NCBI GenBank assembly: GCA_003819815.1
Contig: RPQJ01000028.1
Coordinates: forward strand, 1 to 33,121
Direction: 5' to 3'
DNA: 33,121 nt
Origin: Lysobacterales bacterium
GTDB taxonomy: Bacteria; Pseudomonadota; Gammaproteobacteria; Steroidobacterales; Steroidobacteraceae
The first letter of the stretch is position 1. Each line of letters starts with the position of its first letter. Of this stretch, positions 617 through 21,787 are shown piece after piece. The notes beneath the pieces are model-generated. The model saw nothing but the letters and a program-made list of their open reading frames with translations, was not told the origin of the DNA and searched no databases. The position numbers were made by a program, and so were the translations under genes.

Positions 617-740
617 CGCGTCGTTCCTGCCGCGGGGATGCATGCGCGGGGCCGTGCGCCGCAGGGACGCGGCGCCCGGAGCCTACACGGACGTACTTGC
701 GGCGTCCCCGCGCGTGCATCCCCGCGGCAGGAATGACGCG
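617..740 (-). repeat. Composite palindromic repeat, copy 1 (cloverleaf-like)
   Basis: Arms 617-654 and 703-740 form a 38-nt inverted repeat with 35 Watson-Crick pairs, two G-T pairs (623/734, 643/714) and one mismatch (652/705). Read on the minus strand, the middle forms two further hairpins. One has stem TAC/GTA and loop GTCCGT; the other has stem GCGCCGC/GCGGCGC and loop GTCCCT. Counting from 705 down to 652 gives a 54-nt core, 43 positions of which match copy 2 at 21690-21743. The arms of the two copies are unrelated. The element fills most of the 299-base gap between the fadB-like gene and the next gene; apart from this repeat and the preceding hairpin I see nothing else in that gap. A partial duplication of the arm end (GGCAGGAA, then again after 740) follows the element. 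Confidence 0.85.
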
Positions 741-18159: not shown

Positions 18160-21100
18160 ATGGCCAGAGTCAAGACCGAGCAAGGCGCCGCCGACCGGCT
18201 GCCGGAATCCCATCCCGAGCAGGCGCCGCTGCGCTTCGTGAGCGCCGCGTCGCTCTTCGACGGCCACGACGCCGCGATCAACATCATCCGTCGCCTGCTG
18301 CAGGCGCACGGCGCGGAGGTCGTGCACCTCGGCCACAACCGCAGCGTCGCCGACATCGTGCGCGCGGCGATCCAGGAGGATGCCGACGGCATCGCCGTGA
18401 GTTCCTACCAGGGCGGCCACAACGAGTACTTCCGCTACATGGTCGACATGCTGCGCGAGCAGGGCGCGGGCCACGTGCGCATCGTCGTCGGCGGCGGCGG
18501 CACGATCGCCCCGCACGAGATCGAGGAACTCGAGGCCTACGGCGTCGAGCGGATCTATTCTCCCGAGGACGGCCGCCGTCTCGGGCTCGACGGCATGATC
18601 GAGGACGTCCTTCGGCGCGTGCAGGCCGTCACCCGGCCCGCGTTCGAATTCGGCCCGCTCGGACCGCGTGACCATGGCAGGATCGCCCGCACGATCTCCG
18701 CGCTAGAGCACGCCGAGGTGCCACCGTCCTTGCGCGATGCGCTGCGCAAGGCCGGCGCGAGGTCGCAGAGGCGGGCGCCGGTGATCGGCATCACCGGTAC
18801 GGGCGGCGCCGGCAAGTCCAGCCTCACGGACGAGCTGCTGCTGCGCTTCGTGCGCCATTTCCCGGACCGCAACGTCGCGGTGGTCGCGATGGACCCGACG
18901 CGGCGCCGCAGCGGCGGCGCGCTGCTCGGCGACCGCATCCGCATGAACGCGCTCGCGGCCGAGCAGGTCTTCATGCGCTCCCTCGCGACGCGGCGCCGCA
19001 ACCTCGCGACGAGCGCGGTGCTCGCGGACGTCCTCGACCTGCTGCGCTACGCGGGCTTCGACCTGATCGTCGTCGAGACCGCGGGCATCGGCCAGAGTGA
19101 CTCGGAGATCGTCGACGTCGTCGACGTGCCGATCTACGTGATGACGAGCGACTACGGCGCCGCGAGCCAGCTCGAGAAGATCGACATGCTCGACTACGCC
19201 GAGCTCGTCGCGCTCAACAAGTTCGAGAAGCGCGGCGCCGAGGACGCGCTGCGCGACGTGCGCAAACAGTGGCGCCGCAACCGGGTGGCGTTCCAGCTGC
19301 CGGACGAGGACGTGCCGGTGTTCCCGACGATCGCGAGCCGCTTCAACGATCCGGGCGTCAACCGGCTGTTCGCGGCACTCTGCCGCCGGCTCGACGAAAA
19401 GGCGGGCGAGGGCGGGCGGGGGTGGCCGGTCCAGGACCCGGGGCCGACGAAGCTCGTCGAACGCCATGCGCTCGTGCCGGCGCCGCGCGCCCGCTACCTG
19501 TCCGAGATCGCGTCGAACGGGCGTCACGTCCGCGACGAGCTGCAGCACCGGTCGGAAGCGGCGAGCCGCGCGAACAGCCTGCACGAGGCACTGCGTGCGC
19601 TCGACGATCCTGCGCTGCCTGCGCCGCTCGAGCGATATCCGGCCGACGCACTTGCGGACGCCGCGGATGCCTCGCGCGCCCGGCTGCGCGCCGCCTACAA
19701 CGATGCGATCGATGCGGTCGGGGCCGAAGGCATCGACCTGCTGCGGCAGTGGCCGGCCGTCGCGCTATCCGCGACCGACGACGAGTACGTCTATTCGGTA
19801 CGCGGCCGCGAGATCCGGGGCGGGAACTACACCGAGACGCTGAGCCACAACCGCGTGCCGAAGATCGCGGTGCCCAGGTACCGCGACTGGGGCGAGCTGC
19901 TGGCGTTCCTGCTCAAGGAGCACCTGCCGGGACATTTCCCGTACACCGCCGGCGTGTACCCGTACCGCCGCGAGGAGGAGGACCCGACGAGAATGTTCGC
20001 GGGCGAGGGCGGCCCCGAGCGCACCAACCGTCGCTTCCACCTGCTTGCGGCCGGCCACGGCGCCGCACGCCTCTCGACCGCTTTCGACTCGACCACGCTC
20101 TACGGCGAGGACCCGGACGAGCGCCCCGATATCTACGGGCGCATCGGCAACTCGGGCGTGTCGATCGCGACGCTCGACGACATGAAGAAGCTCTATTCCG
20201 GCTTCGACCTCTGCGCGCCGACGACGTCGGTGTCCATGACGATCAACGGTCCTGCGCCGATGATCCTGGCTATGTTCATGAACACGGCGGTCGACCAGCG
20301 CGTCGAGCGTCACCTGCGCGAGACGGGCCGCTGGGAGGAAGCGGAGCGGAGAATCGCCGTCATGTACCGCGACCGCGCCCGGCCGCGCTACGAAGGCGAA
20401 CTGCCGCCCGGCCACGACGGCTCCGGGCTCGGGCTCCTCGGCGTGACGGGAGACCAGCTGCTCGATCGAGAGACCTACGAGCGCATCCGCGCTGAGACGC
20501 TCTCGCAGGTGCGGGGCACGGTGCAGGCCGACATCCTCAAGGAGGACCAGGCGCAGAACACCTGCATCTTCTCGACGGAGTTCGCGCTCCGGATGATGGG
20601 CGACGTCCAGCAGTATTTCTCCGAGCGCAACGTCCGCAACTTCTACTCGGTGTCGATCTCCGGCTACCACATCGCCGAGGCCGGTGCGAACCCGATCTCG
20701 CAGCTCGCCTTCACGCTCGCGAACGGCTTCACGATCGTCGAGTATTACCTCGCCCGCGGCATGAGCATCGACGACTTCGCGCCGAACCTGTCGTTCTTCT
20801 TCTCGAACGGCATGGACCCGGAGTACGCGGTGATTGGCCGCGTCGCACGCCGCATCTGGGCGCGGGCGATGCGCGATCTCTATCGCGGCGGGCCGCGCTC
20901 GCAGATGCTCAAGTACCACATCCAGACGTCGGGACGCAGCCTCCACGCGCGGGAGATCCAGTTCAACGACGTCCGCACCACGCTGCAGGCCCTCTACGCG
21001 CTCTTCGACAACTGCAACAGCCTGCACACGAACGCATACGACGAGGCGATCACGACGCCCACCGAGGAGTCCGTGCGCCGCGCGGTGGCGATCCAGCTGA

Positions 21101-21612
21101 TCATCAACAAGGAACTCGGCCTCAACAAGACTCAGAACCCGTGGCAGGGCTCGTTCGCCGTCGACCAGCTGACGGACCTGGTGGAGGAGGCGGTGTATCG
21201 CGAGTTCGACCGCATCTCGGAGCGCGGCGGCGTGCTGGGCGCGATGGAAACCATGTACCAGCGCGGCCGCATCCAGGAGGAGAGCCTGTACTACGAGACG
21301 CTGAAGCACGACGGCCGGCTTCCGATCGTCGGCGTCAACACGTTCCTCGGCGCGGAGGACGCGAGCGAGATCCGCGAGGCCGAACTGATCCGGTCGACCG
21401 AGGAGGAGAAGCAGGCACAGGTGCATGCCGTCCGCGCATTCCTCGAGCGCAACGCCGACCGGCGCCCCGAGGCGCTGCATCGGCTGCAGGCAGCGGCCTC
21501 GAGTGGCGGCAACGTCTTCGGGGAGCTGATGGAGGCGGTCAAGGTCGCCTCGCTCGGCAGCATCTCGCACGCGCTCTACGCGGTCGGCGGGCAGTATCGG
21601 CGCAACATGTGA
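18160..21612 (+). CDS. icmF: Fused isobutyryl-CoA mutase (IcmF)
   Basis: A 1150-residue adenosylcobalamin enzyme that interconverts isobutyryl-CoA and n-butyryl-CoA; known homologues also act on isovaleryl/pivalyl-CoA. Domain order is as in IcmF. The N-terminal B12 domain (about 24-160) has Asp34 and His36 in DGHDAA and GGGG in VVGGGGTI. The MeaB-like G-protein chaperone has P-loop GTGGAGKS (213-220) and EKIDMLDYAELVALNKFEKRGA. The C-terminal mutase barrel starts near 560. FAGEGGPERTNRRF, MTINGPAP, SGYHIAEAGANP (with the catalytic His) and LKYHIQTSGRSLH are intact. The pocket Gln799 (before NTCIF) marks it as Icm rather than methylmalonyl-CoA mutase, but the pocket aromatic is Tyr600 or Tyr602, not Phe. 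A segment around 740-780 (GLGLLGVTGDQ) places it in the longer IcmF subgroup. The start has GGGGAGAG upstream. Confidence 0.96.
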   Translation: MARVKTEQGAADRLPESHPEQAPLRFVSAASLFDGHDAAINIIRRLLQAHGAEVVHLGHNRSVADIVRAAIQEDADGIAVSSYQGGHNEYFRYMVDMLREQGAGHVRIVVGGGGTIAPHEIEELEAYGVERIYSPEDGRRLGLDGMIEDVLRRVQAVTRPAFEFGPLGPRDHGRIARTISALEHAEVPPSLRDALRKAGARSQRRAPVIGITGTGGAGKSSLTDELLLRFVRHFPDRNVAVVAMDPTRRRSGGALLGDRIRMNALAAEQVFMRSLATRRRNLATSAVLADVLDLLRYAGFDLIVVETAGIGQSDSEIVDVVDVPIYVMTSDYGAASQLEKIDMLDYAELVALNKFEKRGAEDALRDVRKQWRRNRVAFQLPDEDVPVFPTIASRFNDPGVNRLFAALCRRLDEKAGEGGRGWPVQDPGPTKLVERHALVPAPRARYLSEIASNGRHVRDELQHRSEAASRANSLHEALRALDDPALPAPLERYPADALADAADASRARLRAAYNDAIDAVGAEGIDLLRQWPAVALSATDDEYVYSVRGREIRGGNYTETLSHNRVPKIAVPRYRDWGELLAFLLKEHLPGHFPYTAGVYPYRREEEDPTRMFAGEGGPERTNRRFHLLAAGHGAARLSTAFDSTTLYGEDPDERPDIYGRIGNSGVSIATLDDMKKLYSGFDLCAPTTSVSMTINGPAPMILAMFMNTAVDQRVERHLRETGRWEEAERRIAVMYRDRARPRYEGELPPGHDGSGLGLLGVTGDQLLDRETYERIRAETLSQVRGTVQADILKEDQAQNTCIFSTEFALRMMGDVQQYFSERNVRNFYSVSISGYHIAEAGANPISQLAFTLANGFTIVEYYLARGMSIDDFAPNLSFFFSNGMDPEYAVIGRVARRIWARAMRDLYRGGPRSQMLKYHIQTSGRSLHAREIQFNDVRTTLQALYALFDNCNSLHTNAYDEAITTPTEESVRRAVAIQLIINKELGLNKTQNPWQGSFAVDQLTDLVEEAVYREFDRISERGGVLGAMETMYQRGRIQEESLYYETLKHDGRLPIVGVNTFLGAEDASEIREAELIRSTEEEKQAQVHAVRAFLERNADRRPEALHRLQAAASSGGNVFGELMEAVKVASLGSISHALYAVGGQYRRNM

Positions 21613-21656
21613 CGTCGGCGGGATCGGCGAGTCGGGGGCCGCTCGAGGCTGCCGGC

Positions 21657-21776
21657 GTCCGGCGCCAGGGAAGGCAGACCTTTCCCGGGACGCCGTGAAC
21701 CCCTCCCTGGGGGCTCCGGGCGCGGCGTCCCTGCCGCGCACGGCCCGGGAAAGGTCTGCCTTCCCTGGCGCCGGAC
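21657..21776 (+). repeat. Composite palindromic repeat, copy 2 (cloverleaf-like)
   Basis: Arms 21657-21689 and 21744-21776 are a perfect 33-bp inverted repeat. The 54-nt core (21690-21743) is 80% identical to that of copy 1, with the same length and the same A-G mismatch at its border. It contains hairpin CCC/GGG with loop CTCCCT, linker GGCTCCGGG partly shared, and hairpin GCGCGGC/GCCGCGC with loop GTCCCT. The arms have no similarity to those of copy 1. It occupies the gap between the convergent icmF and plsC-like genes and could also stop transcription from both sides, though no T-run is present. Confidence 0.88.
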
Positions 21777-21787
21777 ACGAGCGGCAC

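Follow-up and report, generated by a model that had tools for sequence, protein, structure and literature searches.

The window analysed here, a stretch of 33,121 nucleotides from a Lysobacterales genome, holds two copies of a structured repeat that is both real and widespread. It is most likely a palindromic element, mobile now or in the past, and the product that it conserves is predicted to be a dual RNA hairpin of CsrA/RsmA type. Each element consists of an outer stem, lineage-typical in length and almost free in sequence, topped by two small hairpins, which we call H1 and H2. On the sequence evidence given below, we think it probable that this is a TwoAYGGAY-like double hairpin, predicted to bind CsrA/RsmA, which has spread within palindromic and partly MITE-like repeats.

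Two copies in the window

The preliminary description of this DNA rested on two cores, at 652-705 on the minus strand and 21690-21743 on the plus strand. Direct comparison of the sequences agrees with it in detail: both are 54 nt long and identical at 43 of 54 positions, six of the 11 differences make up the three compensated pairs that it named, and the loop sequences that it quoted are present in both. We use 'core strand' for the strand on which these cores were described and 'RNA-sense' for its complement. A repeat search of the window matches the two cores over 60 nt in inverted orientation, with 82% complementarity, and reports a palindrome at each copy (arms of 42 and 45 nt). Both strands fold well below shuffled sequences, whether as DNA (z -9 to -13) or as RNA (z -8.6 to -11.9, with 0 of 200 shuffles equally good). 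The element is about 130 bp long here and comprises three helices, the outer stem measuring 36 bp in the first copy (about 616-741) and 39 bp in the second (about 21651-21782) when core-strand A.C oppositions, which are G.U on the complement, are counted as paired.

Copy 1 occupies 616-741 with the plus strand as its proposed RNA-sense (covariance model R1, described below, matches 625-732 on the minus strand at 104.2 bits). Its 36-bp outer stem joins a 5' arm at 616-651, unlike other copies in sequence, to a 3' arm at 706-741, and positions mismatched on the minus strand form G.T pairs on the plus strand. H2 (652-679, loop AGGGAC at 663-668) and H1 (681-703, loop ACGGAC at 687-692) are placed on the plus strand by sequence and alignment structure. 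Both are absent from the free minimum-energy plus-strand fold, and a fold with both exact hexaloops lies 1.8 kcal/mol above that minimum. The left neighbour of copy 1 is a plus-strand gene that ends at 525 and whose tested part has no Pfam match; on the right is a gene for a nitronate monooxygenase (825-1790, plus). Genes were called by a simple purpose-written script.

Copy 2 occupies 21651-21782 with the minus strand as its proposed RNA-sense (R1 match 21663-21770 on the plus strand, 112.8 bits). Read in that sense, its 39-bp outer stem has a 5' arm at 21744-21782 and a 3' arm at 21651-21689, both placed by folding and stem measurement. H2 (21716-21743, minus) presents the loop AGGGAC (21727-21732) exactly in the minimum-energy minus-strand RNA fold, and H1 (21692-21714, minus) has the loop AGGGAG (21703-21708) in the family register of the alignment structure. 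In the free minus-strand fold both hairpins form, H1 being shifted by one register to give a loop CAGGGA in which AGGGA is unpaired; forcing both exact hexaloops costs 7.1 kcal/mol over the free minimum. By sequence, an ANGGAX hexaloop set directly on a stem is present in both window copies. The neighbours of copy 2 are a methylmalonyl-CoA-mutase-type gene with MeaB and B12 domains on the left (18160-21612, plus) and an acyltransferase gene on the right (21788 upward, minus).

Size and distribution of the family

Used as a DNA query, the core gives 28 matches at E<0.001 in its own genome. The covariance-model search that the preliminary description had proposed was run with a model built from 18 own-genome copies (R1) and finds 33 copies in the 2.76 Mb, with E from 1.3e-20 to 5e-9; with the limit set at E 0.1 the search lists 34 rows, of which one is a copy matched on its other strand. 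Over 60 genomes, the own genome and its relatives, R1 matches at least 22 in a patchy distribution, with at least 52 copies in one. A second model, R2, built from 36 diverse copies, finds from 1 to at least 150 copies in each of 20 named genomes, among them at least 115 in Stenotrophomonas maltophilia D457, at least 124 in S. maltophilia SJTL3, at least 135 in Marinobacter azerbaijanicus and at least 149 in Methylotuvimicrobium buryatense. For M. buryatense, 68 R2 matches in 400 kb of a 5 Mb genome mean that 149 is an undercount and extrapolate to several hundred copies per genome. Copies thus occur in the own genome and in relatives, mainly between genes, and the further copies keep both inner stems, so that the dispersed or amplified repeat family suspected from the two window copies is borne out.

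The distribution extends well beyond close relatives. In an even sample of the class, at least 28 of 186 genomes, not counting the own one, have a match, and the H1 pattern recurs in at least 119 stretches of a one-genome-per-species collection, in genera that include Stenotrophomonas, Xanthomonas, Marinobacter, Microbulbifer, Rheinheimera, Moritella, Alteromonas, Sodalis, methanotrophs and others. The named groups among these stretches we take to be gammaproteobacteria, two being labelled Proteobacteria only. Two stretches of viral contigs also match the H1 pattern. No description of the dispersed family was found in the open-access literature, by topic or by sequence strings, among the matches listed.

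Several variants of the element were seen. Contigs C25, C83 and C127 of genome G000 (L020, L023, L019 and their partners) carry a shorter-core subfamily arranged as inverted pairs with common flanks. Some copies have an extra 40-80 nt or so (L236:18049-18592, L063:1702-1845): in D457 the L236 copy has each of its two loops broken directly after CATGG, and in the L063 copy the additional bases sit in the H2 region. Others are longer by match length (L235:16305-16490, L244:9171-9349, L259:13548-13731, L298:1591-1744), and two copies near contig ends, L009 (C72) and L016 (C104), have mismatched arms, as if core-recombined or misassembled.

Architecture and covariation

Across 20 aligned own-genome copies, mean identity is 0.87 in the core and 0.42 in the left arm, and arm complementarity is 0.92, two copies with unmatched arms having been set aside in the arm-identity alignment. 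An alignment of 36 copies, picked from R1 matches for near-equal length and without an extra base, has 44 pairs, at which 94.1% of cells are paired, against 59.7% in shuffled and 39-44% in slid alignments, and its covariation score is 0.845 against 0.213. Changes on both sides are seen in every one of the 27 outer pairs and in nine of the ten H2 pairs, the GCC/GGC foot of H1 being the only frozen helix. Cruder counts from the alignment are barely above shuffles (38 double-change pairs against 35.1; 109 extra pair types against 103.7). These covariation results and the compensatory changes uphold the earlier contention that selection acts on the folded form.

Stem length is characteristic of each lineage: 32-43 bp in 20 of 21 own-genome copies, the remaining one (length 1) being a register slip, and 22-29 bp, with a median of 26, in 48 copies from S. 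maltophilia. When RNA-sense sequences of 36 diverse copies were folded freely, 29 exposed two ANGGA sites and seven exposed one, a site being counted wherever it lay in the element if at least four of its five bases were unpaired.

The informative strand and its loops

The preliminary description had proposed that the folded form matters as DNA cruciform or as RNA; the folded form does matter, but the strand described was the complement of the informative one. Constraint at the RNA level leads one to expect tolerance of G.U on the functional strand, and an excess of A.C on the core strand is G.U on its complement. Such an excess is what we observe. Among the 94 copies of 125 with a clear register, core-strand arm pairs include 63 A.C and 14 G.T. 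Once 15 copies with poorly paired outer arms are dropped, leaving elements with at least 7/10 pairs, arm pairs 9-18, which took no part in setting the register, hold 36 A.C against 3 G.T, and A.C prevails in 25 elements against 3 for G.T (p 2.7e-5). The asymmetry holds over whole stems in D457 (14 A.C against 5 G.T), SJTL3 (14 against 4) and the own genome (10 against 4). Four further stretches, in which zero Cellvibrionaceae copies were scorable, give 34 against 3, a set weakened because it consists mostly of M. buryatense copies (28 against 2) with common descent.

On the complement strand both loops are ANGGAX hexaloops, within CANGGAYG in most copies. H2 has this form in 88 of 91 scorable hairpins (128 copies, 37 of them without a scorable hairpin); at the named loci H1 was fixed by the search pattern, and H2 is there the independent evidence. 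Of the 48 full-length matches in S. maltophilia, 47 have CATGGATG at H2, and H1 and H2 are both ANGGAX in the full-length matches taken from D457 (19 of 24) and SJTL3 (29 of 32). One form of H1, UACAGGGAUGUA, was found in many genera. Constraint within the loops is sharply uneven, with no change in 120 positions at A, G, G and A and nine changes in 60 at N and X (Fisher p 3e-5) among 15 orthologous D457/SJTL3 copies, from 16 aligned pairs. Passages of PMC4005645 describe N and X as the looped-out bases in RsmE complexes and an ANGGAX hexaloop seated directly on a stem as the high-affinity site, and excerpts of PMC7652899 give the CsrA SELEX consensus as RUACARGGAUGU, with mostly 6-nt loops. 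Wobble asymmetry, loop identity and the orientation of the related Rfam family together lead us to reject the core strand as the functional strand.

A different reading of the asymmetry must be weighed. G.T is the better mismatch in single-stranded DNA as well, and tolerance of it on one strand could reflect such DNA: the element would then be a signal in which a transposase or Rep-like HUH enzyme reads the hairpins, as at REP and IS200/IS605 ends, with the GGA loops supplying specificity and CsrA playing no part. We regard this as unlikely. The ANGGAX constraint fits Csr/Rsm contacts, and the element is matched by an Rfam family of a CsrA-related clan; its bearing on mobility is taken up below.

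The occurrence of csrA is compatible with a predicted CsrA/RsmA-binding hairpin. The gene is present in 20 of 20 named element-bearing genomes and in 27 of the 28 element-bearing genomes of the class sample, and is also present in 138 of the 158 without a detected element; because it is so common without the element, the co-occurrence is consistent rather than discriminating. One genome with at least nine copies (G234) gave no csrA match, and csrA was not found in the window's own assembly (86.8% complete; 3 of 9 in the genus).

Genomic context

Among the 33 own-genome copies, 15 lie between convergent genes, two between divergent genes, four in tandem contexts on the core strand and five in tandem contexts on the other strand, with one inside a called gene and six lacking a neighbour. 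These copies suggested an mRNA 3' element of fixed orientation, an idea that we set aside in view of the balance of tandem contexts elsewhere. In the orientation and pairing analysis, which took 117 of 130 R2 matches and left out the 13 weakest, single copies between tandem genes show no RNA-sense bias (21 against 17); at the named loci the counts are 32 against 29. This absence of bias weakens a simple role as an mRNA tail. Simple scores detect no enrichment of sigma-70 promoters or T-tracts beside the element, and on that ground we reject a promoter or terminator of its own.

It might still be supposed that the element is a bidirectional terminator or mRNA 3'-end stabiliser that acts through its long GC-rich stem, the loops being incidental. 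Behind an upstream gene that shares the core-strand orientation, the median distance from the stop codon to the start of the core is 80 nt, and in D457 none of 14 sites falls between divergent genes, compared with 33 of 124 gaps of at least 150 nt; both observations would suit such a role. However, 20 of the 59 M. buryatense sites have divergent genes on either side, the depletion lacks significance once the sets are pooled (28/128 against 190/684, p 0.19), T-tracts are not enriched, and a plain stem would not keep both loops while its own sequence ran free, all of which makes this explanation quite improbable. A general avoidance of divergent gene pairs is likewise discarded, being clear in D457 only, absent in M. 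buryatense and at p 0.19 in the pooled set.

Many copies occur as inverted pairs. Pairs are found at 10 of 14 D457 sites and 12 of 20 SJTL3 sites, there always in the '+-' arrangement on the core strand, and in S. maltophilia their starts lie about 250-340 bp apart. Marinobacter has pairs at 4 of 26 sites; M. buryatense has multiple copies at 9 of 59 sites in various arrangements; and in Cellvibrionaceae 8 of 10 sites are multiple, seven of them '+-'. Since paired copies are inverted, read-through would yield one antisense copy for every sense copy. The linkers of several S. maltophilia pairs (e.g. L233:3039-3185) contain a separate palindrome, GGGGTCAGATCCGTTTTCC...GGAAAACGGATCTGACCCC, between the two elements.

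Evidence bearing on mobility

Comparison of the two S. maltophilia strains gives a view of how sites change. Thirteen D457 sites have their flanks in the SJTL3 stretch as well, and all carry the element there, one at an ambiguous place. In the reverse direction, the flanks of 17 SJTL3 sites occur in D457; an element was detected at 12 of these places in D457, and the other five comprise one clear absence, one loop-inserted copy, one unrelated sequence and two ambiguous mappings. The site differing in presence between SJTL3 and D457 has no clean target-site duplication. At some orthologous sites arms or H2 have been swapped blockwise, and at one a two-pair compensatory change has occurred in an otherwise near-identical left element. 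Together, the swaps and the compensatory change indicate gene conversion as well as selection.

The blockwise swaps, which resemble gene conversion or replacement, could also be accommodated by a dead MITE family whose folding reflects mere inverted repeats and whose loops are conserved through recent spread and gene conversion. Yet the arms, the H2 stem and the N and X positions diverge freely, and A and GGA are held constant both inside single genomes and between many genera, so we consider this account very improbable indeed.

In M. buryatense the copies have a MITE-like setting. Terminal inverted repeat (TIR) strings accompany 40 of 68 copies, and the units, mostly 149-164 bp, have TIRs and TATA at both ends (L297-L316), with the element at the tip. 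The TATA ends are consistent with a TA target and a MITE family of TA type; the spacing of TIRs over the 400 kb revealed no autonomous partner. The preliminary description had suggested checking for a REP-associated transposase-like gene, and a link of this kind is not supported in the own genome: the assembly has one Y1_Tnp (RAYT-type) gene, on contig C75, with no element in the 3.3 kb around it and none of the 33 copies on that contig. The RAYT-type gene has a flanking inverted repeat of its own, GGGTTTAAGTTCCG / CGGAACTTAAACCC, at L031:1204-1217 and 2394-2407, unrelated to the element.

These observations cut both ways for a signal in single-stranded DNA. Dispersed copies without a gene-orientation bias, '+-' inverted pairs at 10 of 14 D457 sites, the TA-ended MITEs of M. 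buryatense and the SJTL3 copy missing from D457 would all be expected of it. Against this, no RAYT is linked to the element in the one genome searched, and the TIRs and TATA ends of M. buryatense suggest a TIR transposase rather than one that reads the apex.

A model and its implications

Our preferred reading is of a predicted CsrA/RsmA-binding double hairpin carried by mobile or once-mobile repeats. RNA from the complement of the first-described core strand would offer two ANGGAX hexaloops to a CsrA/RsmA dimer, and the element would spread as the apex of palindromic repeats, singly or in inverted pairs, and MITE-borne in one studied genome. A transcribed copy would become a long, rigid stem tipped by two CsrA/RsmA sites, and many transcribed copies could titrate the regulator or mark the transcript. 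We infer that copies are transcribed, bound by CsrA/RsmA and regulatory in effect, and that they have been placed by transposition.

CsrA/RsmA controls metabolism, motility and biofilm formation in gammaproteobacteria, and a small number of sponge RNAs are believed to determine how much of the regulator is free. A more ambitious scheme, which we advance tentatively, is that transposition has seeded genomes with tens to several hundred dual CsrA/RsmA aptamers, making up a distributed sponge that sets the free regulator and wires transcripts into the Csr/Rsm network, with the stems kept as a scaffold of defined length through gene conversion and selection. If at least 100 copies each carry two high-affinity sites, then CsrA/RsmA target lists and sponge models are incomplete, with Stenotrophomonas, Xanthomonas, Marinobacter and methanotrophs among the organisms affected. 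Were the model true, the orphan family TwoAYGGAY would gain a genome-wide biology, and the repeat would be a clear case of a mobile repeat bearing a regulator-binding RNA, in effect a mobile reservoir, distributed over the genome, of sites for a master regulator to bind.

Comparison with known systems

The nearest analogue is TwoAYGGAY (RF01731), which shares with the element an outer stem and two GGA-loop hairpins on the same strand as our RNA-sense. Passages of PMC2864571 list it for human gut, gammaproteobacteria and Clostridiales, excerpts of PMC4333381 give it as predicted to bind CsrA, and it belongs with RsmW to Rfam clan CL00106. Compared against R1 and R2 places, 13 of 25 RF01731 matches were comparable and all 13 fall on the proposed RNA strand, two above the cut-off among them. 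At that cut-off (43 bits), RF01731 finds only three places over 20 genomes (two in G072, one in G019), where R2 finds from 1 to at least 150 copies each in 16 of the 20. At E 0.001 it matches nothing in the window genome, nor does it match either window copy at E 1, and the E. coli genome used as a control likewise lacks a match. Neither the window's element nor 17 loci from other genomes yield any match at gathering score. An S. maltophilia copy (L126) scores a sub-threshold 33.1 bits with RF01731, no better than with several microRNA models, because long stems score generically. With the cut-off not reached and the L126 score this weak, we call the element TwoAYGGAY-like rather than a formal member. 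TwoAYGGAY loops are AYGGAY, which fits only part of this family, where N is often G or A; the window copies have AGGGAC, ACGGAC and AGGGAG. Dispersal, inverted pairs, lineage-typical stem length and a MITE context are all absent from the TwoAYGGAY descriptions compared, as far as those passages go.

The REP, BIME and REPIN sequences of GTAG and CGTC type are also dispersed, intergenic palindromes with inverted dimers, as extracts from PMC3733652 describe them. There they are single hairpins of 20-40 bp with a tag, the GTAG type accompanied by RAYT genes, whereas the element is far longer, at about 130 bp in the window, has three helices and lacks a linked RAYT in the own genome. Bacterial MITEs resemble it through the TIR-bounded units with TATA ends, in M. 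buryatense only; here the conserved part is the apex, and no such TIR was seen in the other lineages examined, the window genome included. The SELEX hairpins for CsrA mostly have four pairs or fewer in the excerpted text of PMC7652899, against longer H2 stems here. Finally, CsrB, CsrC and RsmX, Y, Z and W share hairpins with exposed GGA loops, according to passages of PMC4005645, PMC7652899 and PMC4333381, and are described in the last of these as sRNA genes with many sites each. The element departs from such sponge sRNAs in that no promoter signal was found and that its sites come two to a unit, in tens to hundreds of units.
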